Shown one piece after another: positions 43,483 to 63,554 of a DNA stretch of 64,000 nt (its first letter is position 1; each line of letters begins with the position of its first letter). The notes under the pieces were generated by a model. The model made no database searches and had not been told where the DNA came from. It saw nothing but the letters and a program-made list of their open reading frames with translations. Origin of the DNA: Flavobacterium sp. KACC 22761 (GTDB lineage Bacteria; Bacteroidota; Bacteroidia; Flavobacteriales; Flavobacteriaceae); contig NZ_CP139148.1 of NCBI RefSeq assembly GCF_034058155.1, positions 2,728,001 to 2,792,000 of the forward strand, in the 5' to 3' direction. The position numbers and the translations under genes were made by a program.

Positions 43483-43535
43483 TAAAAACGACGAAATGCA
43501 ATTAAAGTCGCATAGTATAATTAGTGATATATAAA

Positions 43536-44498
43536 ATGAGCAATAAATTTACTGTTGGAAGTCTATATGCCGGTATTGGAGGAATTTGTTTAGGATTTAA
43601 AAAATCTGGTTTTGATTTGCTTTGGGCAAATGAATATGATAAAAATGCCTGCATTACGTATAAGGAAAACTTTAAACATAATTTAATTGAAGGTGATGTA
43701 TTGCAATTAGATGTTGACGGAATTCCAAAAATTGATGTACTTACAGCAGGTTTTCCATGTCAGCCATTTTCTGTAGCTGGTTATAGAAAAGGCTTTGACG
43801 ACAATAGAGGAAATCATTTTTTTAGGATATTGGATTTTGTTGATACTATGAGACCAAAAGTGGTTTTTTTGGAAAACGTAAAAAATCTAGTAACACATGA
43901 TCATGGAAATACTATGAAAGTGATCGAAAAATCGTTGCGTGACAGAAATTATTCTTTTCAATCTAAAGTTTTGAATACTAAAGATTACGGCAATATTCCG
44001 CATAATAGAGAACGTATTTTTATAGTTGCTTTTGATAAAACGGTAATTAAAAATCCAGAGGAAGTTTTTGAGTTTCCAAAAGAAGATAAATTGACAAAAA
44101 CGATCAAAGACGTTATTATAAATGAAAAAGTCGAAGATGAATTTTATTATAATGAAGACCGTTATATGTATAAAATGCTTCAAGAGGAAATGACGTCGGA
44201 TAAAACTGTTTATCAATTCAGAAGGCAATATGTAAGAGAAAATAAATCGAATGTTTGTCCGACATTGACTGCAAATATGGGAACAGGAGGGCACAATGTG
44301 CCTTTAATAAAAACCGATTTTGGATTTAGAAAATTGACTCCAAGAGAATGTTTAAGATTCCAAGGTTTTCCGGATGGGTTCAAAATTCCCAAGATAGCTA
44401 ATTCTCATTTATACAAACAAGCAGGGAATTCTGTTAGTGTGCCTGTTATTGAAGCTGTTTCAAAAAATATAATGAAGGTTTTAAAGTCTGCTAAATAG
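43536..44498 (+). CDS. DNA (cytosine-5-)-methyltransferase
   Basis: A 320-residue m5C methyltransferase of a restriction-modification system. The conserved motifs appear in order: SLYAGIGGICLGF (motif I, SAM binding), AGFPCQPFSVAG (motif IV, catalytic Cys), FLENVKN (motif VI), RERIFIVAF (motif VIII), and KQAGNSVSVPV (motif X). Between VIII and IX is a target-recognition region of about 90 residues. ATG 43536 is preferred over a GTG four codons upstream. The recognition sequence cannot be read by eye. It is convergent with two nuclease-like genes that end 14 bases beyond its stop. Confidence 0.95.
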   Translation: MSNKFTVGSLYAGIGGICLGFKKSGFDLLWANEYDKNACITYKENFKHNLIEGDVLQLDVDGIPKIDVLTAGFPCQPFSVAGYRKGFDDNRGNHFFRILDFVDTMRPKVVFLENVKNLVTHDHGNTMKVIEKSLRDRNYSFQSKVLNTKDYGNIPHNRERIFIVAFDKTVIKNPEEVFEFPKEDKLTKTIKDVIINEKVEDEFYYNEDRYMYKMLQEEMTSDKTVYQFRRQYVRENKSNVCPTLTANMGTGGHNVPLIKTDFGFRKLTPRECLRFQGFPDGFKIPKIANSHLYKQAGNSVSVPVIEAVSKNIMKVLKSAK

Positions 44499-46350: not shown

Positions 46351-47132
46351 GGTTCTGTCGCATCTAAAGCTAAGTTTTATCTTTGCCTTTTTAAATTCTT
46401 AAACTCTTAAACTCATGAATACTAAAGGTCATTGCTATCCGAAGTCTATTATACTGCAGGCAGTATATTTTAAGCTTAGGTTTACATTAAGCTATCGGGA
46501 TGTTGAAGAGATCATGAAAATGCGAGGAGTTTCTGTTGATCATGCTACTATTCAGCGCTGGGTTTATAAGTTTACACCTTTGCTTGAGTCAGAGATGAAG
46601 AAGAGAAAAGTCAGAGTAGGGGCGAGTTGGAGATTGGATGAAACCTATATCAAAGTAAAAGGTATTTGGTGTTATTTATATCAAGCGGTAGATAAATTAG
46701 GCAATACAGTAGACTTTCTTTTGACCAGAAAAAGACAGAGAATGGGTGCTCAGTCATTTCTAATTAAAGCAATTAGTAATAACTACAAGCCAAGAGTAAT
46801 AAATATTGATAAAAGTGGATCTAATACTGCCGCTATCAAAGTCTATAACAAGCGTTCATTCTCAAAGGTTAAAATTCGGCAGTGTAAATATCTCAACAAT
46901 ATTGTAGAACAGGACCATCGATTTATAAAATGGAGGATACAAAATGGGTTAGGCTTTAAAAGCTTTGAATCGGCAAGACGAACATTGAGCGGAATTGAAG
47001 TTGTGCATATGCTGAGAAAGAATCAGATGATTGGACATGGTACAACTATGTTTAAATCATTCTGTAAATTGGCGGGCTAACTTTTAAATTACTTCAATTC
47101 TTATATTTGATTCTGGCATATGCGACAGAACC
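46351..47132 (+). mobile_element. IS6-family insertion sequence
   Basis: A 782-base element. Terminal inverted repeats are GGTTCTGTCGCAT at the left (46351) and its mirror ATGCGACAGAACC at the right (ending 47132). It holds one intact transposase gene. The 8-base flanks differ (CTATATTG left, GCCACGAA right), so there is no target-site duplication. That suggests the element arrived by replicative or recombinational events, or that an adjacent deletion occurred, both known for IS6 elements. Confidence 0.88.
46415..47080 (+). CDS. IS6-family transposase
   Basis: A 221-residue DDE transposase. An N-terminal helix-turn-helix (LSYRDVEEIMKMRGVSVDHATIQRW) is followed by the catalytic residues: Asp in WRLDETYIKVKG, Asp in INIDKSGSN, and Glu in NIVEQDHRFIKWR. 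The size and spacing fit the IS6 group. It is intact and probably active. Confidence 0.96.
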   Translation: MNTKGHCYPKSIILQAVYFKLRFTLSYRDVEEIMKMRGVSVDHATIQRWVYKFTPLLESEMKKRKVRVGASWRLDETYIKVKGIWCYLYQAVDKLGNTVDFLLTRKRQRMGAQSFLIKAISNNYKPRVINIDKSGSNTAAIKVYNKRSFSKVKIRQCKYLNNIVEQDHRFIKWRIQNGLGFKSFESARRTLSGIEVVHMLRKNQMIGHGTTMFKSFCKLAG

Positions 47133-47228: not shown

Positions 47229-47284
47229 TCCGTGAATTTTGGCCTTTTTTGTAAACTTTGAAAAGTCTCTTTTTAAGCTCTCAG

Positions 47285-47369
47285 CGGAGGAAGAGGGATT
47301 CGAACCCCCGGACCTGTTACAGTCAACAGTTTTCAAGACTGCCGCATTCGACCGCTCTGCCATTCCTCC
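47285..47369 (-). tRNA. serT: tRNA-Ser (TGA)
   Basis: An 85-base class II tRNA with a long variable arm. The acceptor pairs GGAGGAA / TTCCTCC, the anticodon loop CTTGAAA gives anticodon TGA, and the T-loop region is GGTTCGAATCC. CCA is not encoded. It has its own terminator. Confidence 0.96.
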
Positions 47370-50135: not shown

Positions 50136-51551
50136 ATGAAAATTTTATTAACTGGCACAACAGGATATATTGGCAAAAGGCTATTGCCTTTACTGCTTGA
50201 TCAGGGACATGAAGTAATCTGCTGTGTGCGGGATAAGAACAGATTTTATTATCCTGAGAAAGCTTCTCCAAATATTCAGCTTATTGAAGTTGACTTTCTA
50301 AACAAGGAGAGTGTTGAGAATATTCCTAATGATATAGATGCAGCTTATTATCTTATTCATTCGATGTCTGCTGCTGATAACTATGATGAACTGGAAAGAA
50401 TTTCGGCAAATAATTTCAAAGAAAAAATAAACAAGACAAACGCTCGGCAAGTTATTTATTTAAGCGGAATAGTCAATGACAAATCATTATCCAAACATTT
50501 ATCCTCGAGAAAGGCAGTAGAGGAAATTTTAAAAAGCGCAAAAACACCGACCACCACGTTCAGAGCTGGAATTATTGTAGGTTCCGGCAGTGCCTCATTT
50601 GAAATTATACGGGATTTGGTTCATAAACTACCAGTAATGATTACACCAAAATGGCTCAATACCAAATGCCAGCCCATTGCGATTAGCGATGTTTTAGATT
50701 TTTTGATAAAAGCATTGTTAAATACTAAAACCTATAACCAGAGTTTTGATATTGGCGGTCCTGATATTCTGACCTACAAGGAAATGTTACTTCAATTTGC
50801 CGAGGAAAAAAAACTCAAAAGATATATTTATACACTTCCGGTAATGACACCAAAATTATCATCGTATTGGCTCTATTTTATTACTTCTACGTCTTTCAAA
50901 CTGGCTTCGGCATTAGTAAGCAGCATGAAAGTGGAAGTCGTTTGCAACGACAATAGGATTAATGAATTATTGAATGTAAAACCGATTAGCTACAAACAGG
51001 CTTTGCAAAAGGCGCTTGTGAAGATTGATGAAGATTCAGTAGCTTCGAGCTGGAAAGATTCACAAATCAGCGGACAGTTTAAAGGAAGTGTGTCCTACTA
51101 TCTCAAAGTTCCTAAAAAGGACTGTTTTATTGACAGAAGAAAAAGAAAAATTATAAACAGGGATACAACTATTGCCAAAATTTGGTCTATAGGTGGAGAA
51201 ACTGGCTGGTATTATGCAGACTGGTTATGGAGTCTGCGGGGTTTTATAGATAAGATTTTCGGAGGTGTGGGCGTCAGACGTGGAAGAACCAACAAACATG
51301 AGATTCATTCAGGAGATGCACTAGATTTTTGGCGTGTGGTTTACGCCGATAAAGAACAAGGAAAATTAATTCTCTATGCCGAGATGAAACTTCCAGGCGA
51401 AGCTTGGCTGGAGTTTAAAATTTTTAATAATACATTATATCAGGCAGCAACCTTTAGGCCAAAGGGAATATTGGGAAAATTATACTGGTATTCTGTTCTG
51501 CCTTTTCATGGATTTATTTTTAATGGTATGATCAATAAATTAATAGATTGA
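50136..51551 (+). CDS. NAD(P)-binding epimerase-like protein with C-terminal DUF2867
   Basis: A 471-residue two-domain protein. Residues 1-290 form an NmrA/extended-SDR-like Rossmann domain (LLTGTTGYIGKRLLPLLL; YYLIHSMSAADNYDELE). The C-terminal 160 residues match DUF2867, with IWSIGGETGWYYADWLW and DALDFWRVVYAD. Proteins with this fusion are widespread but their substrate is unknown; an oxidoreductase or sugar/lipid-modifying role is plausible. It is probably co-transcribed with the preceding SDR gene. Confidence 0.9.
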   Translation: MKILLTGTTGYIGKRLLPLLLDQGHEVICCVRDKNRFYYPEKASPNIQLIEVDFLNKESVENIPNDIDAAYYLIHSMSAADNYDELERISANNFKEKINKTNARQVIYLSGIVNDKSLSKHLSSRKAVEEILKSAKTPTTTFRAGIIVGSGSASFEIIRDLVHKLPVMITPKWLNTKCQPIAISDVLDFLIKALLNTKTYNQSFDIGGPDILTYKEMLLQFAEEKKLKRYIYTLPVMTPKLSSYWLYFITSTSFKLASALVSSMKVEVVCNDNRINELLNVKPISYKQALQKALVKIDEDSVASSWKDSQISGQFKGSVSYYLKVPKKDCFIDRRKRKIINRDTTIAKIWSIGGETGWYYADWLWSLRGFIDKIFGGVGVRRGRTNKHEIHSGDALDFWRVVYADKEQGKLILYAEMKLPGEAWLEFKIFNNTLYQAATFRPKGILGKLYWYSVLPFHGFIFNGMINKLID

Positions 51552-51729
51552 TTTTCGGAAAACTTTGTTTTTTTTGAATAGATGTTTTTAAATACGCAAT
51601 AAAATTTTGGTTTAGATGAATTATATTTAACTAAAAAGAATAATTAATGAATTAAATATAATGAAATCATAAGTTTTATTTTGTTGAATCATTTTTTTTT
51701 ATAATTTTGATAAAATAAAAGTTATTATT

Positions 51730-51810
51730 TTGATTTCTAGGAAAATAGATAGAATTCTAAAAACTAAATCTCTTACTTTAAGAGGACTTCAACCTATTTT
51801 TAATTGTTGA
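51730..51810 (+). CDS. leader micro-peptide A1
   Basis: A 26-codon frame ending KTKSLTLRGLQPIFNC then TGA. It starts at TTG 51730. Codons 11-26 encode exactly the same 16 residues as A2 (54285-54365), with six base differences, all synonymous. There is no ATG; the TTG sits in a TATTTTGATT context shared with A2, which also resembles a -7 element, so the true start is uncertain. No signal peptide is visible. It lies in the long leader of the secreted cyanophycinase gene and is followed four bases on by a hairpin. I know of no described family. Confidence 0.7.
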   Translation: MISRKIDRILKTKSLTLRGLQPIFNC

Positions 51811-51814
51811 AGAA

Positions 51815-51880
51815 AAATGGTATGAAACTTTGCCTTCTTCATAAAGTTTCTCATTTACCATTTAGTTGTTTTATTTTAAT
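51815..51880 (+). promoter_or_regulatory. terminator-like attenuator hairpin after peptide A1
   Basis: Stem GAAACTTT / AAAGTTTC with an outer AAATGGTA / TACCATTT, an asymmetric internal loop and a T-rich tail (TTGTTTTATTTTAATTTT). It separates micro-peptide A1 from B1. The position directly after a short ORF fits transcription attenuation. Confidence 0.55.
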
Positions 51881-51899
51881 TTTCTTAATCACAAAAAAA

Positions 51900-51983
51900 A
51901 TGAACTATTCTAATTTAGCATTCGTTTGTATTGATTGCAAATCGCTTTATTTAAAAGGTTTGCAACCAATATTCAATTGTTGA
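51900..51983 (+). CDS. leader micro-peptide B1
   Basis: A 27-codon ORF from ATG 51900, in the A-rich start context typical of the phylum (ACAAAAAAAATG). It ends IDCKSLYLKGLQPIFNC then TGA. From codon 11 to the stop it encodes the same 17 residues as B2 (54450-54533), with three differences, all synonymous, and a different stop codon. It shares the GLQPIFNC ending with A1 and A2. It lies 231 bases before the secreted cyanophycinase gene. Confidence 0.8.
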   Translation: MNYSNLAFVCIDCKSLYLKGLQPIFNC

Positions 51984-52214
51984 AAATAACTTTCTTCATA
52001 GTTTACAGCTTTCAGTATTTAATTCTTACTTAAAATTATACTGTAAGGCAATATTCCAATTATTAAATTTTAAAAGATTGAAATATAATTTTCAATAGTA
52101 TTTAAAATTGCGTAATCGGTATTGTAATTTCTTTAAAGTATTTTACAGTAGTATGATTTGCAATTTTAGGGCTATTGTTAGTTTTTAAATTTAACAATAA
52201 ACAAAAAACATACT

Positions 52215-53996
52215 ATGAAAAATATTTACCACATCAATATAAAACATTTGAATATTTTATTATTTCTATTAGCAGTAAATTTTACATATTCACAAACTTA
52301 CACAAACTGGATAACCGGCAGTGCTTCAGATGTCAACACCACAACCACTGGCGGTACATGTTTGATGGGAGGTGGCACAGACAATGACGATGCCATAAAA
52401 TGGATGATTCAAAAATCAGGCGGTGGCGATTTTGTTGTCATTAGATCTGCTGGCACAGGAGCTTACAATGATTACATCTATGGATTGGGAACAGTAAACT
52501 CTGTAGAAACCATCCTAATAGATACCAGAGCAAAGGCAAGTATTGCAGAAATTGCCACAAAAATTAGAAATGCCGAAGCTTTATTTATTGCAGGCGGAGA
52601 TCAGGCGACTTATGTTTCCTATTGGAAAGATACTCCGGTAGAAGATGCCATAAATTATCTTATCAATACAAAGAAAGTACCTGTTGGAGGAACCAGCGCC
52701 GGATGCGCCATTCAAGGGAAATACTATTATAGTGCCGCAAATGCAAGTGTTACCTCAGCGCAAGCTTTGGCTAATCCGTATAATTCAGATATGACGATCG
52801 GAGCAAATGATTTTTTAAACAACCCGATATTGGCTAACGTAATTACAGATACACATTATAATAATCCTGATCGTAGAGGAAGACAAACTGCTTTTATCGC
52901 CAGAATGTGGAAGGATTTAGGAGCGGGATTGAATGCTAAAGGAATCGGCGTTTATGAAAAAACGGCAGTTTGTATTGATGAAAATGGTATTGCTAAGGTT
53001 TTTGCTCCTGCGACAGCAAACTATGCTTATTTTTATCAGTTTGATACAACTTCGTTGCCAGAAACTGTAACTTCAGGCTCTGCTTTGACTTGGAACAATA
53101 ACGGAAAGGGAGTAAAAATCATCAAAATTGAAGGAGATACTACAGGCTCTACTACGCTCAATTTAAACGATTGGACGACAGTTTCAGGATCTAAAGCAAG
53201 TTATGGCGTCATTAAAGTAGTTAATGGAACTTTGACAGAAACACTTGGAACGTCAGGTGGCGGAGGTGGTACGGTGACTTATTGTTCTTCTGCAGGCAGT
53301 GATGCTAGCAGGGAATGGATTAAAAAAGTGGCAATTGGCAGTATCAGTAATTTAAGCAATTCAAATGGAGGTTATGCTGATTTTTCTTCGCAAGTAACGA
53401 CCATTTCTAAGGGCACGGCAACAACTTTGACATTAACGCCTGGATTTAGTGCAACTAGAAAATTATATTGGAAAGTATTTATAGATTTCAATAATAACGG
53501 AGTTTTCAGTGATTCAGGAGAAGAAGTGTATTCTGTTTTCAGCAGTGCAACTTTGACGCCTCAAATTACTATACCAACATCGGCAGTTAATGGAAACATA
53601 CGAATGCGAATCATAGTAAGCTATAATTCTATTACATCTTCTTGTGGTACTTATACTTATGGAGAAACAGAGGATTATACATTAAATGTTTCTGGCGGAA
53701 CTGCAAAATTTAAAGAAAGTAAAAACATAGAAGTGACTAATACTGAAGTAGTAGTTTACCCAAACCCGACGGTAGATATCCTTAAAATTGATTTTGGATT
53801 GGCAGAAAAAGAAAACATCCAAATTTCTATTTATGATCTGAATGCTTCACTTTTAAAAACAATATATGCAAAGAGAGAATTGGGTCAAAATAGTATAGAT
53901 GTGAATGTTTCAGATCTGAAAGCGGGTCAATATCTACTTTCTATCAAAAGAGGCGACGAAATCGTAAAACGTTCTAAATTTATAATCTCAAAATAA
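52215..53996 (+). CDS. secreted cyanophycinase (peptidase S51) with GEVED and type IX sorting domains
   Basis: A 593-residue protein secreted through the type IX system. It begins with a signal peptide ending TYSQ. The S51 cyanophycinase domain (about 30-340) has AGGDQATYVSYW, the nucleophile serine in VGGTSAGCAI and the DTHYNNPDRRGRQ motif. A GEVED-type beta domain (about 355-500; GETEDYTLNV) and a C-terminal Por-type sorting domain (YPNPTVDILKI to KFIISK) follow. S51 cyanophycinases cut the beta-Asp-Arg backbone of cyanophycin into dipeptides. Secretion makes sense for an extracellular polymer. Its 660-base leader holds two micro-peptide ORFs. Confidence 0.93.
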   Translation: MKNIYHINIKHLNILLFLLAVNFTYSQTYTNWITGSASDVNTTTTGGTCLMGGGTDNDDAIKWMIQKSGGGDFVVIRSAGTGAYNDYIYGLGTVNSVETILIDTRAKASIAEIATKIRNAEALFIAGGDQATYVSYWKDTPVEDAINYLINTKKVPVGGTSAGCAIQGKYYYSAANASVTSAQALANPYNSDMTIGANDFLNNPILANVITDTHYNNPDRRGRQTAFIARMWKDLGAGLNAKGIGVYEKTAVCIDENGIAKVFAPATANYAYFYQFDTTSLPETVTSGSALTWNNNGKGVKIIKIEGDTTGSTTLNLNDWTTVSGSKASYGVIKVVNGTLTETLGTSGGGGGTVTYCSSAGSDASREWIKKVAIGSISNLSNSNGGYADFSSQVTTISKGTATTLTLTPGFSATRKLYWKVFIDFNNNGVFSDSGEEVYSVFSSATLTPQITIPTSAVNGNIRMRIIVSYNSITSSCGTYTYGETEDYTLNVSGGTAKFKESKNIEVTNTEVVVYPNPTVDILKIDFGLAEKENIQISIYDLNASLLKTIYAKRELGQNSIDVNVSDLKAGQYLLSIKRGDEIVKRSKFIISK

Positions 53997-54284
53997 TTTT
54001 TTGTTTTAAGTATTTTCCAAATAATGGAGATCAATCTATTTTGCAATTTTTATTTGTAGTAGAGATACATATTTTAATATTAGGAAGCTATTGTCCAAAT
54101 GACTTGGCTTCCTAATATTGAATATTTGCAAATTGTATTTGTTTTATTTGGTATAAATCTTAAAATTATAAAGAAAAATCAGCTTAAAAACTAAAAACAT
54201 AAATAAAGTTTAATAAAAAGTCTGGTTTTTATTTTTTACTTCGATTTTTTTTCTATTTTTAACATCAAATAAAATCACTCTATT

Positions 54285-54365
54285 TTGATTGCAGGAAAAG
54301 CAAATACAATCACAAAAACAAAATCTCTTACCTTAAGAGGTCTTCAGCCAATCTTTAATTGTTGA
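54285..54365 (+). CDS. leader micro-peptide A2
   Basis: A 26-codon frame from TTG 54285 (same TATTTTGATT context as A1) ending KTKSLTLRGLQPIFNC then TGA. The first ten codons have diverged from A1, but the last sixteen are identical in amino acids with only synonymous changes. It is followed by a hairpin and by B2, and it lies in the leader of the susC gene. The start codon is uncertain, since the TTG overlaps a promoter-like motif. Confidence 0.7.
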   Translation: MIAGKANTITKTKSLTLRGLQPIFNC

Positions 54366-54373
54366 AGAAAATT

Positions 54374-54430
54374 TGATATTTAAACACCGCTCTTGAGTGT
54401 GCCATATCATTATTGTATTTTTTTTATTTT
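54374..54430 (+). promoter_or_regulatory. terminator-like attenuator hairpin after peptide A2
   Basis: Stem TGATAT / ATATCA with an inner ACAC / GTGT and a nine-base loop, followed by a T-rich tract (ATTTTTTTTATTTT). It occupies the same place after A2 as the hairpin after A1, although the sequence differs. Confidence 0.55.
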
Positions 54431-54449
54431 CTCAACCAAACCAAACCAA

Positions 54450-54533
54450 ATGAATTTTACCAATTTATTAAACCGTTATATTGATTGCAAATCACTTTAT
54501 CTAAAAGGTCTGCAACCAATATTCAATTGTTAA
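54450..54533 (+). CDS. leader micro-peptide B2
   Basis: A 27-codon ORF from ATG 54450, preceded by CCAAACCAAACCAA. It ends IDCKSLYLKGLQPIFNC then TAA. Its N-terminus MNFTNL resembles that of B1 (MNYSNL). The two have identical lengths, and codons 11 to the end differ only by synonymous changes. It lies 106 bases before susC. Confidence 0.8.
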   Translation: MNFTNLLNRYIDCKSLYLKGLQPIFNC

Positions 54534-54639
54534 AAAGTTTCCCTTCTCAGTTTACAGATTTTTATGCCCAAAACTCTTCATTTTCATGAATCGTTAAGGC
54601 ATTTCTATTGTCAATTTTATTAAATTTTAAACTAAGAAA

Positions 54640-57639
54640 ATGAAACTAAACAAAAAACTAAAACTAATTATTGTGCTGTTGTCATGCATTTCAACATACG
54701 CACAAAAAACTATAAAAGGGATTGTTACAGACAAGCAATCCAATATACCAATGGTAGGCGTCAATGTTATTGTTCCTAATTCAAAAGTGAGCACAGTTAC
54801 TGACTTTGACGGAAAATTTCAGCTTCAGATACCTGAAAACAGCACTTCGATTGAACTTTCTTATATAGGATATCAAACCCAAAAAATAACTCTGGATGGG
54901 AAATCCAATTACACTATTTATATGACATCAGGCCAAGGCCAAAGTCTCGATGAAGTAGTGATTATTGGTTACGGAACGCAATCTAAAAAAGATGTAAGTT
55001 CCAGTATTCAATCCATAAAAACTAAAGATCTGCCTCAGGGAACCTCTTCAAGTTTTGAAAACAGTCTTCAGGGACAAACTCCTGGGGTGAATATAAGTTC
55101 ATCATCTGCCACGCCGGGTAGCGCTGTTAGTGTTAATATTCGTGGGGTTTCATCTATTTCAGCAAGTAGCCAGCCTTTGTATATTATAGACGGAATTCCG
55201 GTAGTATCTAGAAATAATTCAGCATTGAATTCGAATATACAACCTGTAAATCCATTGGCAGATTTGAGTCCAAATGATATCGACTCTTTTACGATTTTAA
55301 AGGATGCCGCGGCAGCCGCAATATATGGATCAAGAGGTGCAAATGGAGTAATCTTAATTACTACAAAAAGAGGGAAAAGTGGAAAAAGTACTGTAGATGT
55401 CAATTACTACACCTCTTTTGCTCAAATTTCGAATTATCCAAAAATGGTAGACAGCGATAAGTTTAAAAGCTTTTTTAATACCGCTGCTGAATTTGATGGA
55501 CTTGGTTCAGATTATTTTGATTGGATCGATACTTCAAAAGGAATTAATACCAATATTTACGACGAAATCTTCAGAGTTGGCGTAACACAAAATTTGGATC
55601 TTAGTGTTAAGGGCGGAAGCGAAAAAACAAGTTATTATTTAAGCGGAAATTATTATAATCAAGAAGGAATCCAAATCGGACAAGGCTTCAAGAGATTAAG
55701 CGCTCGTATGAATCTGGATCATAATATTAATGAAAAATTCAAAATAGGAAATACCTTTTTTATAACTCGAAGCAATCACCAGCGAACAATTGGAGAAAAT
55801 GATGAATATGGAGTTGTGATCAATGCTCAGGGCTGGGATCCTACTGAACCCATTTACGATGCTAATGGAAAATATACAAATCCGTTTAAGTACAATACTT
55901 GGTGGCCGCTTGAAAATCCTGTTCAAATTGCCAACGAATATAAAAACACCTCTCAATCGACACGTTTACAAGGTTCAGCGTATGTGGAATGGAAAATTAT
56001 TCCAGATTTGAAATTTAAGTCTGCCTTTTCGTTAGAGTATTCCAACTTGGTTGAGGATTCTTATGTTCCATCGGGCACAAATAAATCTAAAACAGGCGAG
56101 GGGATTTATGCAACTTATGAAGAAACCAACTGGCTCGTTGAAAATACGTTGAACTACACTAAACTCTTTGGCGAAAAACATAATTTCGGGGCCATTTTAG
56201 GTTGGACGATTCAAGAAAATGAAACTCGTTTCTCAGATCAGTCAGGTGTTGGATATGCTACCAACACAACCTCTAGTATTTCGGCAGCAAGTACTATTAT
56301 TGCTAGTACTTCAGGCAGAAATCAATACGGTTTGCAATCCTTTTTTGGAAGAGCAAATTATGTTTACGATGACAAATATATAGCATCATTTACATTGAGA
56401 GCTGATGGTTCGTCTCGTTTTGGAGAGAACAATCAATACGGTTATTTTCCTTCAGGATCAGTGGCTTGGAGAATCAATAAAGAGAAATTCTTTAAAATTG
56501 AAACCATTTCTGATCTTAAAGTAAGAGCTAGTTATGGACTTACAGGAAATCAAGAAATTGGTTCAAACTGGAGAGGAACTTATACTTTGAATGCTAATTA
56601 TAATGGAGTTCCAGGAATAGCACCAAATCGATTAGAGAATCCTGACTTGGGCTGGGAAAAAACAAAACAATTAGACATAGGTTTAGATTTAGGATTGTTT
56701 AAAAACCGAATCAATTTGACAGCTGATTATTTCAACAAACAAACCGATGATCTTTTATTGCAGGCAAAAGTTTCAGGACTTACAGGTTTTAACTCCGTTT
56801 ATCAAAATGTTGGCGCTATAGAAAACAAAGGATTCGAATTTGGAATTAATGCAGCTGTTTTTGACGGAAATTTTAAATGGAATACAGGAGTAAATTTAAC
56901 GTTGCTTGATAATAAGATTAAAAAATTAATCAATGATGGAGAAGAAGTAGGAAGAAATCATATTCTTAAAGAAGGAGAAGAGGTAAGTACTTTGTATTTA
57001 ATTAAATTTTTGGGTGTAGATCCGCAAACTGGAGATGCAAAATTTGATGACGTAAATAAGGATGGAATTATTGATTTCTCTGACAGACAGATTGTTGGTG
57101 GTGCATTGCCAACTTATTTTGGAGGATGGAGCAACAATTTCACATACAAAGGATTTACTTTAACAGCAAACTTCGTATTCTCTGGAGGAAACAAAATATT
57201 CAATCAAAGCCGACATGTTTATGATAACTACGGTTACACAAAAAGCGGTATTCCATATTCTAACATAAGTGAAAGAGTATATGATAATTATTGGAGAACG
57301 CCAGGGCAAATTACTGATGTGCCAAGACCTTCTACTAAAGATGGGCAAATGCAGCGTTTCAGCACGCAGTTTTTGGAAGATGGTGATTACATAAGATTGA
57401 AAACGTTAAGTCTTGCTTACAAACTGCCTTCAAATGTGATTCATAAAATTGGTTTGAATAGTCTTTCTCTTTATATACAAGCCCAAAATTTATTTACTAT
57501 AACAGATTATTTAGGTTTCGATCCTGAGGTTTCGACGAATACTTCAAGCCAAGAAGATTTGAATATTCTGCAAGGGGAAGATTTTGGAACATTAGGCCAG
57601 GCGCGCACCATTACATTAGGATTAAGTACAACATTTTAA
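54640..57639 (+). CDS. susC: SusC/RagA-family TonB-dependent transporter
   Basis: A 999-residue outer-membrane importer. A signal peptide ends at CISTYAQ. A carboxypeptidase-regulatory-like domain (GIVTDKQSNIPMVGVNVIV) follows, then the TonB box/plug (DEVVIIGYGTQSKKDVSSS, then QPLYIIDGIPV) and a 22-strand barrel ending in LGLSTTF. It forms a bucket-lid complex with the SusD encoded 11 bases downstream. The genomic setting predicts that the cargo is cyanophycin-derived peptides, beta-Asp-Arg; SusC proteins also import peptides, not only glycans. The long 5' leader contains two micro-peptide ORFs. Confidence 0.96.
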   Translation: MKLNKKLKLIIVLLSCISTYAQKTIKGIVTDKQSNIPMVGVNVIVPNSKVSTVTDFDGKFQLQIPENSTSIELSYIGYQTQKITLDGKSNYTIYMTSGQGQSLDEVVIIGYGTQSKKDVSSSIQSIKTKDLPQGTSSSFENSLQGQTPGVNISSSSATPGSAVSVNIRGVSSISASSQPLYIIDGIPVVSRNNSALNSNIQPVNPLADLSPNDIDSFTILKDAAAAAIYGSRGANGVILITTKRGKSGKSTVDVNYYTSFAQISNYPKMVDSDKFKSFFNTAAEFDGLGSDYFDWIDTSKGINTNIYDEIFRVGVTQNLDLSVKGGSEKTSYYLSGNYYNQEGIQIGQGFKRLSARMNLDHNINEKFKIGNTFFITRSNHQRTIGENDEYGVVINAQGWDPTEPIYDANGKYTNPFKYNTWWPLENPVQIANEYKNTSQSTRLQGSAYVEWKIIPDLKFKSAFSLEYSNLVEDSYVPSGTNKSKTGEGIYATYEETNWLVENTLNYTKLFGEKHNFGAILGWTIQENETRFSDQSGVGYATNTTSSISAASTIIASTSGRNQYGLQSFFGRANYVYDDKYIASFTLRADGSSRFGENNQYGYFPSGSVAWRINKEKFFKIETISDLKVRASYGLTGNQEIGSNWRGTYTLNANYNGVPGIAPNRLENPDLGWEKTKQLDIGLDLGLFKNRINLTADYFNKQTDDLLLQAKVSGLTGFNSVYQNVGAIENKGFEFGINAAVFDGNFKWNTGVNLTLLDNKIKKLINDGEEVGRNHILKEGEEVSTLYLIKFLGVDPQTGDAKFDDVNKDGIIDFSDRQIVGGALPTYFGGWSNNFTYKGFTLTANFVFSGGNKIFNQSRHVYDNYGYTKSGIPYSNISERVYDNYWRTPGQITDVPRPSTKDGQMQRFSTQFLEDGDYIRLKTLSLAYKLPSNVIHKIGLNSLSLYIQAQNLFTITDYLGFDPEVSTNTSSQEDLNILQGEDFGTLGQARTITLGLSTTF

Positions 57640-57650
57640 AAATTGAAATC

Positions 57651-59000
57651 ATGAAAAATCAAAAGATATATATATTCTTGTCTATGTTGCTTGCCTTTAC
57701 AGTTTTAGGATGTGACGATGTATTGGACACTAAATTGGATGATGAAATTCCGGCGGCAACTGCCATAACGGATAATATTTCATTAAAGGCGGCCGCAGTT
57801 GGACTATATGATGTGATGCAAAGCGGTACTTACTATGGAGGCGAATTCATATTAGCTCAGGAATTAACAAGCGGTAATGCTGATGCTACCGGTTTTCAGG
57901 AACGTTTCAGGCAGTTAGACAATGCTATTGTTCCGCCATCAAATGCTTATATTCAAAGCAATTGGGTTAATGCTTACTCACTTGTGAATGCCAGTAATTT
58001 GATTTTGCTTAAAATGGAAGAACTTCAGCTAAAAGATGATAATTCTAAAGGAACCGCACTTTTTTGCAGAGCATTAGGGCATTTTGATGCTTTGCGCCAA
58101 TTTGGACAATTTACAGATCAAAATTCAAAATACGGTATTCCAATTTCAACTAAATATTTGGATGCAAAATCGGCGCTTGAAGTATCAAGATCAACTGTTG
58201 CTCAATCCTATCAGCAGATTATATCCGATTTAAAAGATGCCATAGCAATCTTAAAATATGACAGTGCTAGATTTTTTATTACAAAAGCAGCTGCCGAAGC
58301 CTTGCTTGCAAGAGTTTATTTGTATCAAGGCGATTATGACAACGCTATATTGTATGCCAGTAAAGTAATCAGCAATACAGCTTATAAATTAAATGCAAAA
58401 TACAATGATATTTATGATGTTGAAGGTTCGGCCGAAGCTGTATTTGAATTGCAGTTTTTAGGAATTGACGGCAATAGTTTGACTGAATATTTATCAGTTT
58501 CACCTCCTGAGGTTTCGGCCAACTACACTAATTTTTTCAAAGCCATGGATGCTGACAACGATCCTAGAAGCTATAAATATTATGATTCAGGAAAGCAAGT
58601 TTATTGCGATAAGTACGGAACCCGTGACAGCGAAATAGAGGGAAATGCGATTATCATCAAGCTTTCAGAGGTCTATCTGATTCGTGCAGAGGCGTTGGCA
58701 AAAAAGAATCCGCAAAATTTAAGTTTGGCTTTGGCCGATTTAAACGTGGTGCGTCAAAGAGCCTTGCCTACAAAACCTTACACTTTGGCGTCTGTTCCAA
58801 ATCTAGATGCTTTTGTTAGCATTTTGATTGAGGAAAATAAAAGGGAATTAGGTTTTGAAGGGCATCAGTGGTTTACTTTAGTGAGATTAGGCAAAGCAAC
58901 CTCAATTTTAAATATTCCTGCTTTCAGGACAACTTATCCTATTCCGCAAAATGAAATTACTATTGCACGTGGAAAATTAGAACAAAATCCAGGATATTAA
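57651..59000 (+). CDS. susD: SusD/RagB-family surface lipoprotein
   Basis: A 449-residue surface-exposed substrate-binding lipoprotein. The lipobox TVLGC is followed by DDVLDTKLDDE, an acidic stretch typical of surface lipoproteins. TPR-like helices (FCRALGHFDALRQFGQF; EALLARVYLYQGDYDNAILYA) and the C-terminal SusD motif (RELGFEGHQWFTLVRLG) follow. It caps the SusC barrel. Start and stop spacing show co-translation with susC. Ligand is inferred from neighbours to be Asp/Arg peptides. Confidence 0.95.
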   Translation: MKNQKIYIFLSMLLAFTVLGCDDVLDTKLDDEIPAATAITDNISLKAAAVGLYDVMQSGTYYGGEFILAQELTSGNADATGFQERFRQLDNAIVPPSNAYIQSNWVNAYSLVNASNLILLKMEELQLKDDNSKGTALFCRALGHFDALRQFGQFTDQNSKYGIPISTKYLDAKSALEVSRSTVAQSYQQIISDLKDAIAILKYDSARFFITKAAAEALLARVYLYQGDYDNAILYASKVISNTAYKLNAKYNDIYDVEGSAEAVFELQFLGIDGNSLTEYLSVSPPEVSANYTNFFKAMDADNDPRSYKYYDSGKQVYCDKYGTRDSEIEGNAIIIKLSEVYLIRAEALAKKNPQNLSLALADLNVVRQRALPTKPYTLASVPNLDAFVSILIEENKRELGFEGHQWFTLVRLGKATSILNIPAFRTTYPIPQNEITIARGKLEQNPGY

Positions 59001-59100: not shown

Positions 59101-60051
59101 ATGACAAATAAAACGCCATTTGCACTTTGTATACATGGAGGTGCGGGTGTAATAACTCCCGAAAATCTATCAGAAGCCGATAAAAAATTAATAAAAGATG
59201 ATTTGATTCTTGCCCTAAATGCCGGAGAAGAAATTTTAGCACAAGGCGGAAATGCCATTGATGCCGTTGCAGCTGCAGTAGTAGCTTTGGAGAACAGCAT
59301 TCATTTTAATGCAGGAAAAGGAGCAGTTTATTCCCGAGAAGGCAAACATTTGCTCGAAGCCTCAATAATGGATGGCGCTACTTTAGAGGCAGGAGCAGTT
59401 GCAAATAGCATGAAAATCAAAAACCCTGTTTTATTTGCCAAAAGTTTATTAGAAAATAAAGATATCATCATGATATCTGGTGAAGCGGCCGATAATTTGG
59501 CAGAGCAAACTAATCATGAATTAGTTGAAAACGATTACTTTGATACCAATTTTAGAAAAGAACAATTTTTGGAAGCCAAAAAAGTTTCTGAAACAGCAAC
59601 TTTTCTTGACCACACCAATTTGAAGATGGGGACTGTTGGCGCTGTAGCTATTGACAGAACTGGAAATATAGCGGCGGCAACTTCAACTGGAGGAATGACC
59701 AATAAATTGGATGGGCGTATTGGTGACTCTGCCATTATTGGAGCTGGGACTTATGCCAATAATAAGACTTGCGGTGTATCCTGTACAGGTGTTGGAGAAT
59801 ATTTTATCAGGGCTACCGTTGCTTCAATGGTATCGAATTTAATGGAATTTGGAAACATGTCCCTAGTTCAAGCAACCGAAATAACGATCAAAGGCCATTT
59901 GACAAAATTAGGCGGGGAAGGAGGGCTTATAGCAATTGATAAGGATGGAAATATTAATTTTTCCTATAATTCCCAAGGAATGTACCGCGGTTTTGTAAAT
60001 GAAAAAAAGAAAGAGAAAAAGATATTTATCTGGGATGATGAAGAGCTATAA
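59101..60051 (+). CDS. iaaA: isoaspartyl peptidase / plant-type L-asparaginase
   Basis: A 316-residue Ntn-hydrolase of the T2 family (EcAIII-like). It cleaves itself to expose the nucleophilic threonine in the GTVGAVAID segment, near residue 180. The N-terminal FALCIHGGAGVIT, the GGNAIDAVAAAVVALE helix and the GMTNKLDGRIGDSAIIGAGTYAN block are diagnostic. No signal peptide is present, so it is cytoplasmic. The family hydrolyses beta-aspartyl dipeptides; with cyanophycinase products this would yield Asp and Arg. It lies between SusD and the YfcC transporter. Confidence 0.95.
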   Translation: MTNKTPFALCIHGGAGVITPENLSEADKKLIKDDLILALNAGEEILAQGGNAIDAVAAAVVALENSIHFNAGKGAVYSREGKHLLEASIMDGATLEAGAVANSMKIKNPVLFAKSLLENKDIIMISGEAADNLAEQTNHELVENDYFDTNFRKEQFLEAKKVSETATFLDHTNLKMGTVGAVAIDRTGNIAAATSTGGMTNKLDGRIGDSAIIGAGTYANNKTCGVSCTGVGEYFIRATVASMVSNLMEFGNMSLVQATEITIKGHLTKLGGEGGLIAIDKDGNINFSYNSQGMYRGFVNEKKKEKKIFIWDDEEL

Positions 60052-60110: not shown

Positions 60111-61499
60111 ATGAAATTAATCCAAAAATTCCCGGACACAATCACTATTATTTTAGTGATTACAATTCTTTTTATTGGTTTAACTTGGGTAATTCCTGCT
60201 GGAGAGTTTGACAGGTCTGTAGTAAACAATACAGAGAAGATCATAGCAGGTTCCTACAAGCACGTAGAAGCGGCTCCACAAGGAATTAAAGCTTTTTTAG
60301 AAGCTCCGATAAAAGGTTTTATTTCGGCATCACAAATTATTGCTTTTGTGTTTTTGGTTGGAGGTGCTTTTTCGATTATCAATTTGACTGGCGCTATAAA
60401 TGCTGGACTTTTTAATGTGATTGAGTTTAGCCAAAAGAAGCCAAAACATAAAATATTCATTGTTCCTTTTCTGATTATTCTATTCTCTTTTGCCGGAGCT
60501 ACTTTTGGAATGAGCGAGGAGATTTTAATCTTTATTTTGATTACTGTCCCAATGGCAAAAGCAATGGGTTATGATGCCATTGTTGGTGCCGCTATTCCAA
60601 TTGTTGGTACAGGTGTAGGTTTTGGAGGAGCTTTCAGCAACCCGTTTACCATTGGTATTGCGCAAGGCATTGCCCAAATCCCAATTTTTAGCGGCATGGA
60701 ATATAGGATTTTTGTCTGGTTTGTTTTGACAACATGTGCTTGTGCTGTAATTACACATTATGCCATAAAAATTGAAAAAAATCCTCAGAAGAGTTTGTTG
60801 TTTGGTATTGCTGATGAAAAAGAGAAAAGCAGTGTTGAAGCATCAGATTTTAAATTGGACGGAAGAAGGAAGATAATTTTGTACGCCCTTTTTGCTTCAA
60901 TCCTTATATTGATTTATGGAGTAAGCAATTATGATTGGTACATAAACGAAATTTCGGCTCTATTTTTGGCTTTAGCCATTTTTGTTTCTATTATTTATAG
61001 AATGTCGATGTCAAAAGCCATCGATGCTTTTGTGTTGGGAGCCAAAGATATGATGACTGCAGCCTTGGTGATTGGTCTGGCCAAAGGACTTTTGATTATT
61101 GCGCAGGAAGGCAGAATTATTGACACAATACTGAATTCCATTGTTGCCATAACACAAAATACGCCGACGGCTGTTTCTGCTGAATGCATCTTTTTTTTCC
61201 AATCCTTTTTAAACTTTTTTATTCCTTCAGGATCAGGCCAAGCTTCTTTAACAATGCCCATAATTATCCCAATTTGTGATGCGTCAGAAATAAGCAGACA
61301 AATGGCAGTACTTACTTTTCAGTTGGGCGATGGTTTTACAAATCTGATAATTCCGACAAGTGGCGTTACAATGGGAGCGCTTTCTTTGGCTAAAATTCCG
61401 TACAGCAAATGGTTTAAATGGATGTTGCCTAGAATGTTGGTATTTTTAATAGCATCAATGCTTTTGATTCTTCCTCCGTTGTATTTGTTTAATTGGTAA
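60111..61499 (+). CDS. YfcC-family inner-membrane transporter
   Basis: A 462-residue integral membrane protein with about eleven helices. Sequences such as VIPAGEFDR, FGMSEEILIFILITVPMAKAMGYD and FIPSGSGQASLTMPIIIPI are typical of the YfcC/DcuC-like group, which includes putative C4-dicarboxylate and basic amino-acid carriers. The setting suggests transport of arginine, ornithine, aspartate or beta-Asp-Arg across the inner membrane; direction is unknown. It is 60 bases after the isoaspartyl peptidase and 12 bases before the second cyanophycinase. Confidence 0.9.
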   Translation: MKLIQKFPDTITIILVITILFIGLTWVIPAGEFDRSVVNNTEKIIAGSYKHVEAAPQGIKAFLEAPIKGFISASQIIAFVFLVGGAFSIINLTGAINAGLFNVIEFSQKKPKHKIFIVPFLIILFSFAGATFGMSEEILIFILITVPMAKAMGYDAIVGAAIPIVGTGVGFGGAFSNPFTIGIAQGIAQIPIFSGMEYRIFVWFVLTTCACAVITHYAIKIEKNPQKSLLFGIADEKEKSSVEASDFKLDGRRKIILYALFASILILIYGVSNYDWYINEISALFLALAIFVSIIYRMSMSKAIDAFVLGAKDMMTAALVIGLAKGLLIIAQEGRIIDTILNSIVAITQNTPTAVSAECIFFFQSFLNFFIPSGSGQASLTMPIIIPICDASEISRQMAVLTFQLGDGFTNLIIPTSGVTMGALSLAKIPYSKWFKWMLPRMLVFLIASMLLILPPLYLFNW

Positions 61500-61510
61500 A
61501 TCGGACAAAA

Positions 61511-62563
61511 ATGAAAACGCTAACAATAAGTTTTTTGTTGATTTTAAGCGCTTGTTCTTCTGAAAACAAACCAGAAAATCCAGTTCCGCAAACGCCGGAA
61601 GTCAAAAATTACCAATCTTATTTTACAGGAAACAAAGTTGATAAAACCACGACTCCCCAAGGCGGAATTTGCTTGATGGGTGGAGCGACCGAAAATGATG
61701 AGGCAATGAAATGGTTTTTGCAAAGAGCGGATGGAGGAGATGTTTTGGTATTAAGAACTTCGGGTTCTGATGGATATAATTCTTATTTATATACTTCTCT
61801 TGGTGTTACGGTTAATTCTGTTGAAACGATTGTTTTTAAAAATGCCAAAGCAAATTCTGATAAGTATATATTGGATAAAATAAATAATGCGGAAGCGATT
61901 TGGTTTGCCGGTGGCGATCAATGGGAATATATTTCTTATTGGAGAAACAGTCCGATTTCTGAAGCAATTAATAAAGCTATCACTAAGAGAAAGGTGGTTG
62001 TAGGAGGAACCAGCGCTGGTATGGCTATTCAGGGCGGTTTTTATTTTTCGGCTCAAAATGGCACTGTAACTTCTCAAGAAGCCTTAATGAATCCGTTTGA
62101 CACTAAAATAACAGTATCAAATGATTCCTTTTTAGATAATGCAATCCTAAAAGATGTAATAACCGATACGCATTATGACAATCCCAATAGAAAAGGAAGG
62201 CATGTGACTTTTTTAGCCCGAATTGTAAATGATTATAAAGTGCAGGCAAAAGGAATTGCTTGCGAGGAATATACTGCTGTATGCATAGACGAAAAAGGAA
62301 TCGCAAGAGTTTTTGGCAATTACCCTTCAAAAGATGATGTGGCCTACTTTATAGCGCCAAATGCCGAAATTCCAGACAACAAACCAGAAACCTGCAAACT
62401 AAATACTCTATTAGAGTGGAATCGAAATGGAGCCGCTCTGACTGTTTATGAAGTCAAAGGGACCAGTACAGGAGCCAATACATTTGATTTAAATAATTGG
62501 AAGGATGGAAAAGGAGGTACATGGAAAAAATGGTTTGTAGAAAGTGGTAAACTGAAAGAATAA
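61511..62563 (+). CDS. lipoprotein cyanophycinase (peptidase S51)
   Basis: A 350-residue second cyanophycinase, with lipobox ILSACSS instead of a type IX sorting domain. The catalytic core matches the first: FAGGDQWEYISYW, VVGGTSAGMAIQGG with the nucleophile serine, and DTHYDNPNRKGRH. It therefore cuts the same polymer or its fragments but stays anchored, probably in the outer membrane or periplasm. It lacks the GEVED domain. ATG 61511 is chosen over an in-frame TTG at 61493 that overlaps the transporter end, because it begins the signal peptide. Confidence 0.93.
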   Translation: MKTLTISFLLILSACSSENKPENPVPQTPEVKNYQSYFTGNKVDKTTTPQGGICLMGGATENDEAMKWFLQRADGGDVLVLRTSGSDGYNSYLYTSLGVTVNSVETIVFKNAKANSDKYILDKINNAEAIWFAGGDQWEYISYWRNSPISEAINKAITKRKVVVGGTSAGMAIQGGFYFSAQNGTVTSQEALMNPFDTKITVSNDSFLDNAILKDVITDTHYDNPNRKGRHVTFLARIVNDYKVQAKGIACEEYTAVCIDEKGIARVFGNYPSKDDVAYFIAPNAEIPDNKPETCKLNTLLEWNRNGAALTVYEVKGTSTGANTFDLNNWKDGKGGTWKKWFVESGKLKE

Positions 62564-62603: not shown

Positions 62604-63554
62604 ATGAACTATTTTTATCTTCAAAAATATGATAAATTCATATTGAAATTAAACGTAAAAAACGAATCCTCAAGACTCCGGGCTGTAATTTTGGGATCAG
62701 CCGTTCATAATGGGCCAACTCCAACTTTAGAGGAAGCTTATGACCCTAAGTCATTGGAACACATCAAAGCAGGAACATACCCGATAGAAAAAGACATGAT
62801 TTCTGAGATGAAAGCTTTTAATGATGTTTTTAGAAAATATGATGTAAAAGTATATCGCCCAGAAAGGATTGAGAACTATAATCAGATTTTTGCCAGAGAT
62901 ATCGGCTTCGTAATTGATGATGTGTTTGTGAAATCGAATATACTGCCTGACCGTGAACGCGAATTAGATGCAATTCAGTATATCATCGATCAAATTGATC
63001 CGCAAAAAGTTGTTCGTCCGCCAGAAGAAGTCCACATTGAAGGGGGCGATGTTATGCTTTGGAACGACCATATTTTTATTGGAACTTACAAAGGAAGCGA
63101 TTATAAAGATTACATCACAGCCAGAACCAATATGCAGGGTGTCAATTTCATAAAAGAGCTGTTCCCAAATAAAATTGTGAAAGAATTTGACCTTGTCAAA
63201 TCAAAGCTAGAAGCCAGAGACAATGCTTTGCATTTGGATTGCTGTTTTCAGCCAGTTGGAGAAAATAAAGGGATCATTTATAAAAGAGGTTTCCGTGAAG
63301 AAGCTGATTATTTGTATTTGGTTAATCTTTTCGGAAAAGAAAACTTGTTTCATATCGAAAGAGAAGAAATGTATCATATGTTTTCGAACGTGTTTTCGAT
63401 TGATAAAAATGTTGTGGTTTCAGAGAAAAACTTCACTCGATTGAATAACTGGCTTCGTGAAAATGGCTTTATAGTTGAAGAGATTCCGTATGCCGAAATT
63501 GCAAAACAAGAAGGGTTATTAAGATGTTCAACTCTTCCGTTAATAAGAGATTAA
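62604..63554 (+). CDS. arginine deiminase-family (amidinotransferase superfamily) enzyme
   Basis: A 316-residue guanidino-modifying enzyme. Motifs are IFARDIGFVIDD (FARD, guanidinium-binding acid), HIEGGDVMLW, HLDCCFQPV (catalytic His region) and GLLRCSTLPLIRD (nucleophilic Cys near the C-terminus). Members are arginine deiminases, dimethylarginine hydrolases and amidinotransferases. After cyanophycin breakdown, arginine is the expected substrate, giving citrulline and ammonia. Cytoplasmic: no signal peptide. It lies 41 bases after the cyanophycinase. Confidence 0.9.
   Translation: MNYFYLQKYDKFILKLNVKNESSRLRAVILGSAVHNGPTPTLEEAYDPKSLEHIKAGTYPIEKDMISEMKAFNDVFRKYDVKVYRPERIENYNQIFARDIGFVIDDVFVKSNILPDRERELDAIQYIIDQIDPQKVVRPPEEVHIEGGDVMLWNDHIFIGTYKGSDYKDYITARTNMQGVNFIKELFPNKIVKEFDLVKSKLEARDNALHLDCCFQPVGENKGIIYKRGFREEADYLYLVNLFGKENLFHIEREEMYHMFSNVFSIDKNVVVSEKNFTRLNNWLRENGFIVEEIPYAEIAKQEGLLRCSTLPLIRD

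Follow-up and report, generated by a model that had tools for sequence, protein, structure and literature searches.

What do four conserved micro-peptides do in front of the predicted cyanophycin-scavenging genes of Flavobacterium sp. KACC 22761? They are encoded in a 64,000-nucleotide (nt) stretch of its genome (NZ_CP139148.1, positions 2,728,001 to 2,792,000; hereafter the window, whose numbering is used throughout), in which an earlier note had described four short open reading frames (ORFs) as two tandem A/B pairs, one before the gene of a secreted cyanophycinase (assigned here to peptidase family S51) and one before susC. These positions are confirmed. All four ORFs lie on the forward strand: A1 (51730..51810; 26 amino acids, TTG start, C-terminal KSLTLRGLQPIFNC, then TGA) is followed by B1 (51900..51983; 27 amino acids, ATG start, C-terminal CKSLYLKGLQPIFNC, then TGA), and A2 (54285..54365; 26 amino acids, TTG start, C-terminal KSLTLRGLQPIFNC, then TGA) by B2 (54450..54533; 27 amino acids, ATG start, C-terminal CKSLYLKGLQPIFNC, then TAA). 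A recount reproduces exactly the six base differences reported for codons 11-26 of pair A and the three for codons 11-27 of pair B, all synonymous, plus the exchange of TGA for TAA. Judged from sequence, the four micro-ORFs are two tandem pairs of one leader family and are likely ribosome-arrest leaders that would induce the predicted cyanophycin-scavenging genes.

The last 14 codons of these leaders are under coding constraint, their stop position is invariant and their starts are conserved. The family consensus reads [CT]-K-[SP]-L-[TSY]-L-[RKQ]-G-L-Q-P-I-F-[ND]-C-stop. In a conservation profile of 64 unique sequences, collected with a regular expression that itself demanded L, Q or K, P, I or V, F, N or D and the stop, L-10, L-7, Q-6, P-5, F-3 and the stop never vary (positions counted back from the stop), while K-14 is present in 63 sequences, C-1 in 60, and position -9 may be R, K, Q, L or M. 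The stop is TGA in 32 of these sequences, TAA in 18 and TAG in 14; since all three codons are in use, the leaders do not seem to require one particular release factor. The ratio of non-synonymous to synonymous differences per site (pN/pS) in the 14-codon core is 0.13 for A leaders and 0.12 for B leaders, as pairwise averages that ignore kinship among loci picked by peptide pattern, a choice that favours conservation of the pattern's own letters. The identity of the A1/A2 and B1/B2 cores with only synonymous change is free of this selection bias. Variable columns fall at third, first and second codon positions in 14, 10 and 5 of the 14 core codons, respectively. When 61 unique cores are pooled, the reading frame has a pN/pS of 0.15 and contains no internal stop, whereas the other five frames give 0.89, 2.36, 0.65, 0.40 and 2.23 and contain stops, in each case in 38 to 56 of the 61 sequences. 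Purifying selection on the peptide, as the earlier note had claimed, is thus supported. Its statement that the N-terminal halves have drifted also agrees with the values found there (pN/pS 0.91 for A and 0.55 for B, against about 0.1 in the core). Non-synonymous or frameshift change in relatives had been named as what would refute the claim; in these relatives the core is kept: some positions show exchanges, whereas L-10, L-7, Q-6, P-5 and F-3 show none. A hairpin within the core (CARC with GYTR) was considered as a requirement and rejected, as mismatched combinations occur among the 61 cores (CAA with TGC in three, CAG with TGT in 21).

The beginnings of the leaders are nearly as regular as their ends. 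Leader A, whose start had been left uncertain, has TTG (25 cases) or GTG (two cases, from two lineages) at codon -26 in 27 of 28 unique sequences, which now supports TTG 51730 as the start of A1. The lone exception, at the third locus of F. circumlabens, has CTG at -26 and TTG at -24. Leader B begins with ATG at codon -27 in 26 of 29 sequences and at -30 in the other three. An alternative start of A at codon 9 (ATT or ATC; ATG in F. taihuense), with TTG as part of a promoter -7 box, was rejected because TTG swaps with GTG, is fixed at -26 in 27 of 28 leaders and has a separate box further upstream. This box, TA[CT]TTTT[AG] or TAATTTTG, a pattern picked post hoc after the sequences were seen, is present in 26 of 30 A leaders at a distance of 22-35 nt upstream of the start, compared to 190 of 6022 AT-rich background windows. 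A full sigma-A box TAnnTTTG stands at -27 or -28 in six cyanophycinase-type leaders of the main Flavobacterium clade, matching the -7 consensus given in PMC9723704. Here, the predicted -7 box of the cyanophycinase unit is TAATTTTG (51702..51709, forward strand), and that of the susC unit is the -7-like TATTTTTA (54254..54261, forward strand), whose final base departs from TAnnTTTG. Given the promoter-like box before it, leader A is predicted to come first among the ORFs of the transcript.

How far does this family extend? Within the window, a six-frame search with the regular expression found no copies beyond A1, B1, A2 and B2, and the whole genome (5.04 Mb), searched with up to two mismatches to GLQPIFNC-stop, returned only the same four, with none for the reversed-pattern controls. 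A further S51-like gene lies at 5.01 Mb of this genome (L110), apart from the SusC/SusD cluster and without a leader, and adjoins a gene that by eye resembles penicillin acylase. In a large scan of 84,980 species genomes with the back-translated pattern L-x-L-x-G-L-Q-P-I-F-[ND], which demanded neither Cys nor a stop, 57 matches were obtained in 31 stretches of 26 genomes, all Bacteroidota by record titles: 14 Flavobacterium (F. defluvii and F. anhuiense among them), Robertkochia, Aquimarina, Galbibacter, Tamlana, two Christiangramia, Salinimicrobium, Persicobacter, three metagenome-assembled genomes (MAGs) of Cytophagales and one Saprospiraceae MAG. As 0.05-1.2 matches are expected by chance depending on GC content, the pattern is far beyond chance. 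All 57 matches continue with one more residue (C in 54, N in three) and then the stop, although the pattern was stop-free. A looser reading of the same loci adds copies with G replaced by N, R by L or M, or I by V. In a family sample of 299 genomes, true copies occur in four genomes, that of strain KACC 22761 among them, and nine of the 13 matching genomes were set aside as chance matches judged from their reading frames. By the same judgement three of the six matching genomes in a class sample of 395 are chance matches; the other three carry true copies, one of them (G587) coming from another family, with KPAHLIGLQPIFDC and KPVALRNLQPIFDC. The large collection was scanned with this one pattern and none looser, so the family is likely wider than listed. 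Throughout the Flavobacteriaceae the tandem order is A then B, in all genera found except Robertkochia.

A search of Bacteroidota for the pattern, with a table of downstream genes, had been proposed in the earlier note as a check, and it ties the leaders to cyanophycin clusters. The table compares the window proteins by tblastn with 32 leader stretches, equal to 30 distinct loci because L051 overlaps with L078 and L032 with L072; left out were L028, L035, L038, L039 and L049 (contig or stretch ends), stretches superseded by longer ones, L030 (a duplicate of L021) and L024 (a relic locus, shown in L070). A predicted cyanophycin-scavenging gene (S51, beta-aspartyl peptidase, SusC/SusD or YfcC-type carrier) adjoins the leader in all 32 stretches, and an S51 or beta-aspartyl peptidase gene is present in 29, the other three ending in or just past susC. 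The gene directly after the leader varies between S51, susC and, in Robertkochia (L021), the peptidase; in L023 and L066 an ORF with a secreted-protein-like start comes first. The SusC proteins of the Cytophagales, Persicobacter, Saprospiraceae and G587 loci are only 24-36% identical to the window SusC, and this distance, together with the varied gene after the leader, suggests that the leader is tied to the pathway as a whole, not to any single gene. Four leaders stand within 6.3 kb in the Cytophagales MAG UBA9432 (L073), three of them preceding genes for an S51 protein, a beta-aspartyl peptidase and another S51-like protein, respectively, and the fourth following the last gene. This fourth leader is near the contig end, and the gene it serves lies beyond the contig.

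Searches that began from genomes or clusters point the same way. Twenty genomes searched whole yielded only the leader copies already known, and six further genomes yielded one new copy, in a Saprospiraceae MAG, before genes for SusC, SusD and a beta-aspartyl peptidase. Among 299 Flavobacterium genomes, with up to five first-look candidates scored in each, the cluster's SusD (E≤1e-60) is found in ten; Cys-ending leaders occur in the same 10 of 10 and in none of the 289 without it (hypergeometric probability 7e-19, relatedness ignored). Eight of the 18 matching Flavobacterium genomes, each with a single one-mismatch match, were discarded as chance, seven of these matches overlapping other ORFs and one being intergenic, none with the core. 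A natural control is provided by Flavobacterium sp. Root935, which holds the sole disrupted copy found. At its third, paralogous locus (L070 2536-3530), everything between leader B and an NADP-oxidoreductase-like gene (PF03807) has been lost, while in the intact counterpart of F. circumlabens (L072) a similar NADP-oxidoreductase-like gene follows the operon. With the downstream operon gone, leader B of Root935 has decayed, having lost its start and acquired a premature stop and changes at conserved residues. Control of SusC/SusD systems is usually exerted by FecR-type anti-sigma factors together with SusC proteins bearing an STN domain. One genome (G157, L109) has a cyanophycin-type SusC/SusD cluster with a FecR anti-sigma gene and an STN-bearing SusC, and in this single case no leader was detected by the family-sample pattern or by a looser reading. 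From this genome, the leader and sigma/anti-sigma control may be alternatives.

Does the RNA beyond the stop codons take part? The earlier note had held that the pattern is not that of a conserved RNA motif, which stands insofar as the constraint lies in the reading frame and needs amending insofar as weak structure, in part specific to certain lineages, is also present in the spacers downstream of the stops. Compared to dinucleotide shuffles, mean z-scores are -1.88, -0.89 and -1.27 for the A-to-B spacer groups and -1.72, -1.79 and -2.66 for the B-to-gene groups. The A1-B1 spacer (51811..51899) contains an imperfect hairpin AAATGGTATGAAACTTTG...AAAGTTTCTCATTTACCATTT with a T-rich tract after it, yet its z is -0.96, 37 of 200 shuffles fold equally well, its nine homologues average -0.89 and alifold gives no support. 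For the A2-B2 spacer (54366..54449; hairpin TGATAT...ACAC/GTGT...ATATCA, again with a T-rich tract after it), z is -1.11 with 26 of 200 shuffles folding equally well, the 13 homologues average -1.88 and alifold support is weak (-0.77). The 231-nt spacer between B1 and the cyanophycinase gene (51984..52214) was compared with eight homologues over the first 120 nt, giving a mean z of -1.79 and an alifold value of -3.33 that is matched by 1 of 100 shuffles. Its end and the homologous regions (52108-52214) form a conserved stretch closing with ACAATAAACAAAAAACATACTATG before the cyanophycinase gene, which may hold a second promoter or a start-region signal. In the B2-susC spacer (54534..54639; inner hairpin ATGCC at 54564-54568 with GGCAT at 54598-54602), the alifold value of -6.99 is matched by 1 of 100 column shuffles, a crude control, and one stem pair appears as GC, AT and GT. 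The consensus fold is absent or nearly so when alifold is applied to the remaining spacer groups.

Within the B2-susC spacer, the stop-proximal arm (about 54544-54561) has a predicted partner at about 54622-54636, directly before the susC start, and the stop-proximal contact with the start region amounts to 19.98, as against 3.57 in shuffles. In a test of B-to-gene spacers shorter than 160 nt, a limit that places long cyanophycinase spacers, the window's own included, outside, pairing between the start region and the 32 nt next to the stop is stronger than in at least 90% of the 40 shuffles for 12 of the 26 cases. These cases come from four lineages (the main Flavobacterium clade, Aquimarina, Christiangramia and Salinimicrobium). 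Masking 15 nt, as for a ribosome at the stop, lowers the predicted pairing of the start region from 0.73 to 0.40 in Salinimicrobium and from 0.63 to 0.33 in Christiangramia lutea. Such folding models support an erm-like step in some lineages and not a general rule.

Taken together, these features would fit the following mechanism. A ribosome that has finished ...LQPIF[ND]C would be held at the stop codon on meeting a ligand, in a termination arrest as in TnaC and SpeFL, and the held ribosome would keep the RNA past the stop from folding or being bound. At leader A, the result would be continued transcription; at leader B, and there only in some lineages, it would be an accessible susC start region, for which the folding models otherwise predict pairing with the bases next to the stop. 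Expression of the genes would be induced by a product of cyanophycin breakdown. The predicted products of the cluster are beta-Asp-Arg and then Asp and Arg, in line with the breakdown pathway given in PMC10206079. From this predicted breakdown and the presence of an arginine deiminase-like gene, beta-Asp-Arg, arginine and ornithine are named as candidate ligands only. Since the residues nearest the peptidyl transferase centre and the stop are fixed, the codons are free, the N-terminal spacer is of near-constant length and a single predicted catabolic pathway follows, the combination is, by analogy, characteristic of nascent peptides with a regulatory role, such as TnaC and SpeFL.

Several observations weigh against this mechanism. 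Leader A of Root935 is still open, with one core exchange, despite the lost operon. In Flavobacterium sp. A45 (L028), at a contig end, about 140 nt and no gene separate a cyanophycinase-type pair from the susC-type A behind it, which may reflect gene loss or an assembly fault. The five stretches of the window folded singly reach z values of only -0.67 to -1.11, matched by 26-50 of 200 shuffles. In 14 of the 26 B-to-gene spacers, there is no excess of stop-to-start pairing over shuffles (the F. taihuense group, ES-bin-45, G071, G256, Galbibacter, Tamlana, Robertkochia, Cytophagales and Persicobacter); with all 26 taken together, pairing of the start region barely exceeds that in shuffles (0.53 versus 0.51), and among A-to-B spacers such contact is seen in only two of 30. 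A C-over-G skew after the stops, examined as a mark of a possible Rho entry site, is weak and depends on which of two controls is used (A, p 0.08 and 0.96; B, p 0.0005 and 0.049). A simple scan of 51500-54800 returned no terminator-like sites, with 1.2 expected in shuffles, so that an intrinsic terminator after the leaders, as far as this weak test goes, was discarded as a candidate. Leader peptide B1, the only one compared, shows no similarity to a solved chain.

The alternative that survives best, although still an unlikely one, is that the leaders act without a ligand, with constant slowing or constant release of ribosomes that would only set a basal level or couple translation from A to B to the gene through termination and reinitiation. 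The order A-B-gene with similar spacing would suit such coupling, as would the B start region, which is more open than when shuffled (0.39 versus 0.50), and the gap between the B stop and susC, which in most Flavobacteriaceae loci measures about 98-110 nt. However, coupling alone leaves unexplained both the conservation of amino acids with free synonymous change and the link to one pathway. Attenuation by codon supply, in which a ribosome slowing at codons for a scarce amino acid would choose between a terminator and an antiterminator fold, appears less plausible again. Short ORFs before amino-acid-related genes with predicted hairpins downstream would suit it, and PMC9723704 reports hints that operons for amino acid biosynthesis in F. 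psychrophilum are subject to attenuation by leader peptides upstream of them. However, the leaders contain no run of Arg, Asp or any other single codon, position -9 varies, the invariant residues are L, L, Q, P and F, and the simple scan found no terminator-like site; a catabolic operon would also be expected to respond to the presence of its substrate and not to the lack of an amino acid. Since there is no run of codons for one amino acid, it is likely that the peptide itself is read. What is conserved is a peptide, and it might act off the ribosome as a small secreted or regulatory peptide, with its leader position stemming from co-induction; this we consider very improbable, as copies before several genes of one cluster (L073, and the two pairs in the window) favour action in cis and the N-terminal parts drift (pN/pS 0.91 and 0.55). 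A conserved RNA or DNA motif such as a riboswitch or operator, open in one frame by accident, can almost be dismissed, since the better-than-shuffled folding of the spacer groups and the short CARC...GYTR complement inside the core stand against a pN/pS of 0.15 in a single frame, stops in 38-56 of 61 cores in each other frame, Gln and Cys codons that need not match, and no Rfam match at E≤1 in 51400-54800.

The preferred reading, ligand-dependent arrest at the stop codon, places the family beside several described systems. In PMC8429421, the finished TnaC and SpeFL peptides are described as blocking release at the stop when a metabolite is bound. Like TnaC, the leader of the E. coli tna operon, as portrayed there, the family comprises short leaders before a catabolic operon, with conserved C-terminal residues, a Pro near the C terminus and an arrest proposed to occur while the stop codon occupies the A site (PMC8429421). 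Unlike TnaC, which ends in Pro, it ends in Cys or Asn, comes as two leaders in series, stands before outer-membrane uptake genes in Bacteroidota and has candidate ligands only; no sequence relation is claimed. SpeFL, the gamma-proteobacterial ornithine sensor of speF, is likewise a leader linked to arginine and ornithine metabolism. Termination arrest, described for SpeFL, is proposed for the present leaders too, the C-terminal part of SpeFL being the effector according to PMC8429421. The leaders described here appear to have a core of other sequence, and they differ further in having no conserved N-terminal sensor (pN/pS 0.91 and 0.55), in using UGA, UAA and UAG, and in having candidate ligands only. 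ErmBL and ErmBL2 are two leader peptides before one gene according to PMC8274638, and the present leaders share this arrangement as well as, in some lineages, the predicted pairing between stop-proximal RNA and the start region. In contrast to the antibiotic-induced ErmBL/ErmBL2 with its internal stall site, the leader family is fixed at the stop codon and precedes catabolic genes. Extracytoplasmic function (ECF) sigma factors with FecR and an STN-bearing SusC resemble the leaders in controlling SusC/SusD uptake clusters of Bacteroidota, and differ in being a protein signalling path across the envelope that works without a leader peptide.

Neither Pfam nor NCBIfam has a match for the three leader peptides scanned. 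The motifs LQPIFN, LQPIFD and GLQPIF were found in none of the open-licence papers searched, a body of literature that omits most subscription journals. Searches of it for leader peptides with Bacteroidota, SusC/SusD or cyanophycin, which mostly stopped short of the full papers, brought up neither a description of the family nor any other metabolite-sensing arrest peptide for SusC/SusD systems or cyanophycin genes. That the leaders form an undescribed class of arrest sensors in Bacteroidota, with two serial nascent-peptide gates that work at any stop codon, sense beta-Asp-Arg or arginine and replace sigma/anti-sigma control of SusC/SusD, can be put forward only tentatively.

The genes behind the two pairs are all on the forward strand. 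The first pair precedes the secreted cyanophycinase-like protein (52215..53996), with peptidase S51, GEVED and type IX secretion system (T9SS) sorting domains (PF03575, PF20009 and PF18962) and a TIGR02069 match below that model's cut-off. The second pair is followed by a SusC/RagA TonB-dependent transporter (54640..57639; TIGR04056, E 8e-276), a SusD-like lipoprotein (57651..59000; PF14322, PF07980) and a beta-aspartyl peptidase or plant-type asparaginase resembling IaaA (59101..60051; PF01112, E 8e-95; NF007589 below its cut-off). Further along are a YfcC/DcuC-type carrier with predicted transport of basic amino acids (60111..61499; PF03606, E 2e-103; NF008611 below its cut-off), a second cyanophycinase-like S51 protein, by eye a predicted lipoprotein (61511..62563; PF03575), and the arginine deiminase-like protein (62604..63554; PF02274, E 9e-13). 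A few kb upstream of the leaders lies an IS240-type transposase gene (46415-47080; PF13610), which adjoins a tRNA-Ser (TGA) on the minus strand (47284-47369), and the region may be an integration site. Near the transposase, a C5 cytosine methylase (43524-44498; PF00145) and two reverse-strand ORFs, one of them with no Pfam match, are possibly a restriction system.

To our knowledge, natural arrest peptides that respond to small metabolites are few, and the present family offers a defined core of 15 residues with 61 unique natural variants, an internal duplicate and a short list of candidate ligands. Given its presence in 10 of 10 Flavobacterium genomes with the cluster's SusD and in none of the 289 without, the leader also marks cyanophycin-scavenging clusters. 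Cyanophycin is a storage polymer of cyanobacteria, and the leader thereby helps to find bacteria that are predicted to use cyanobacterial nitrogen stores.

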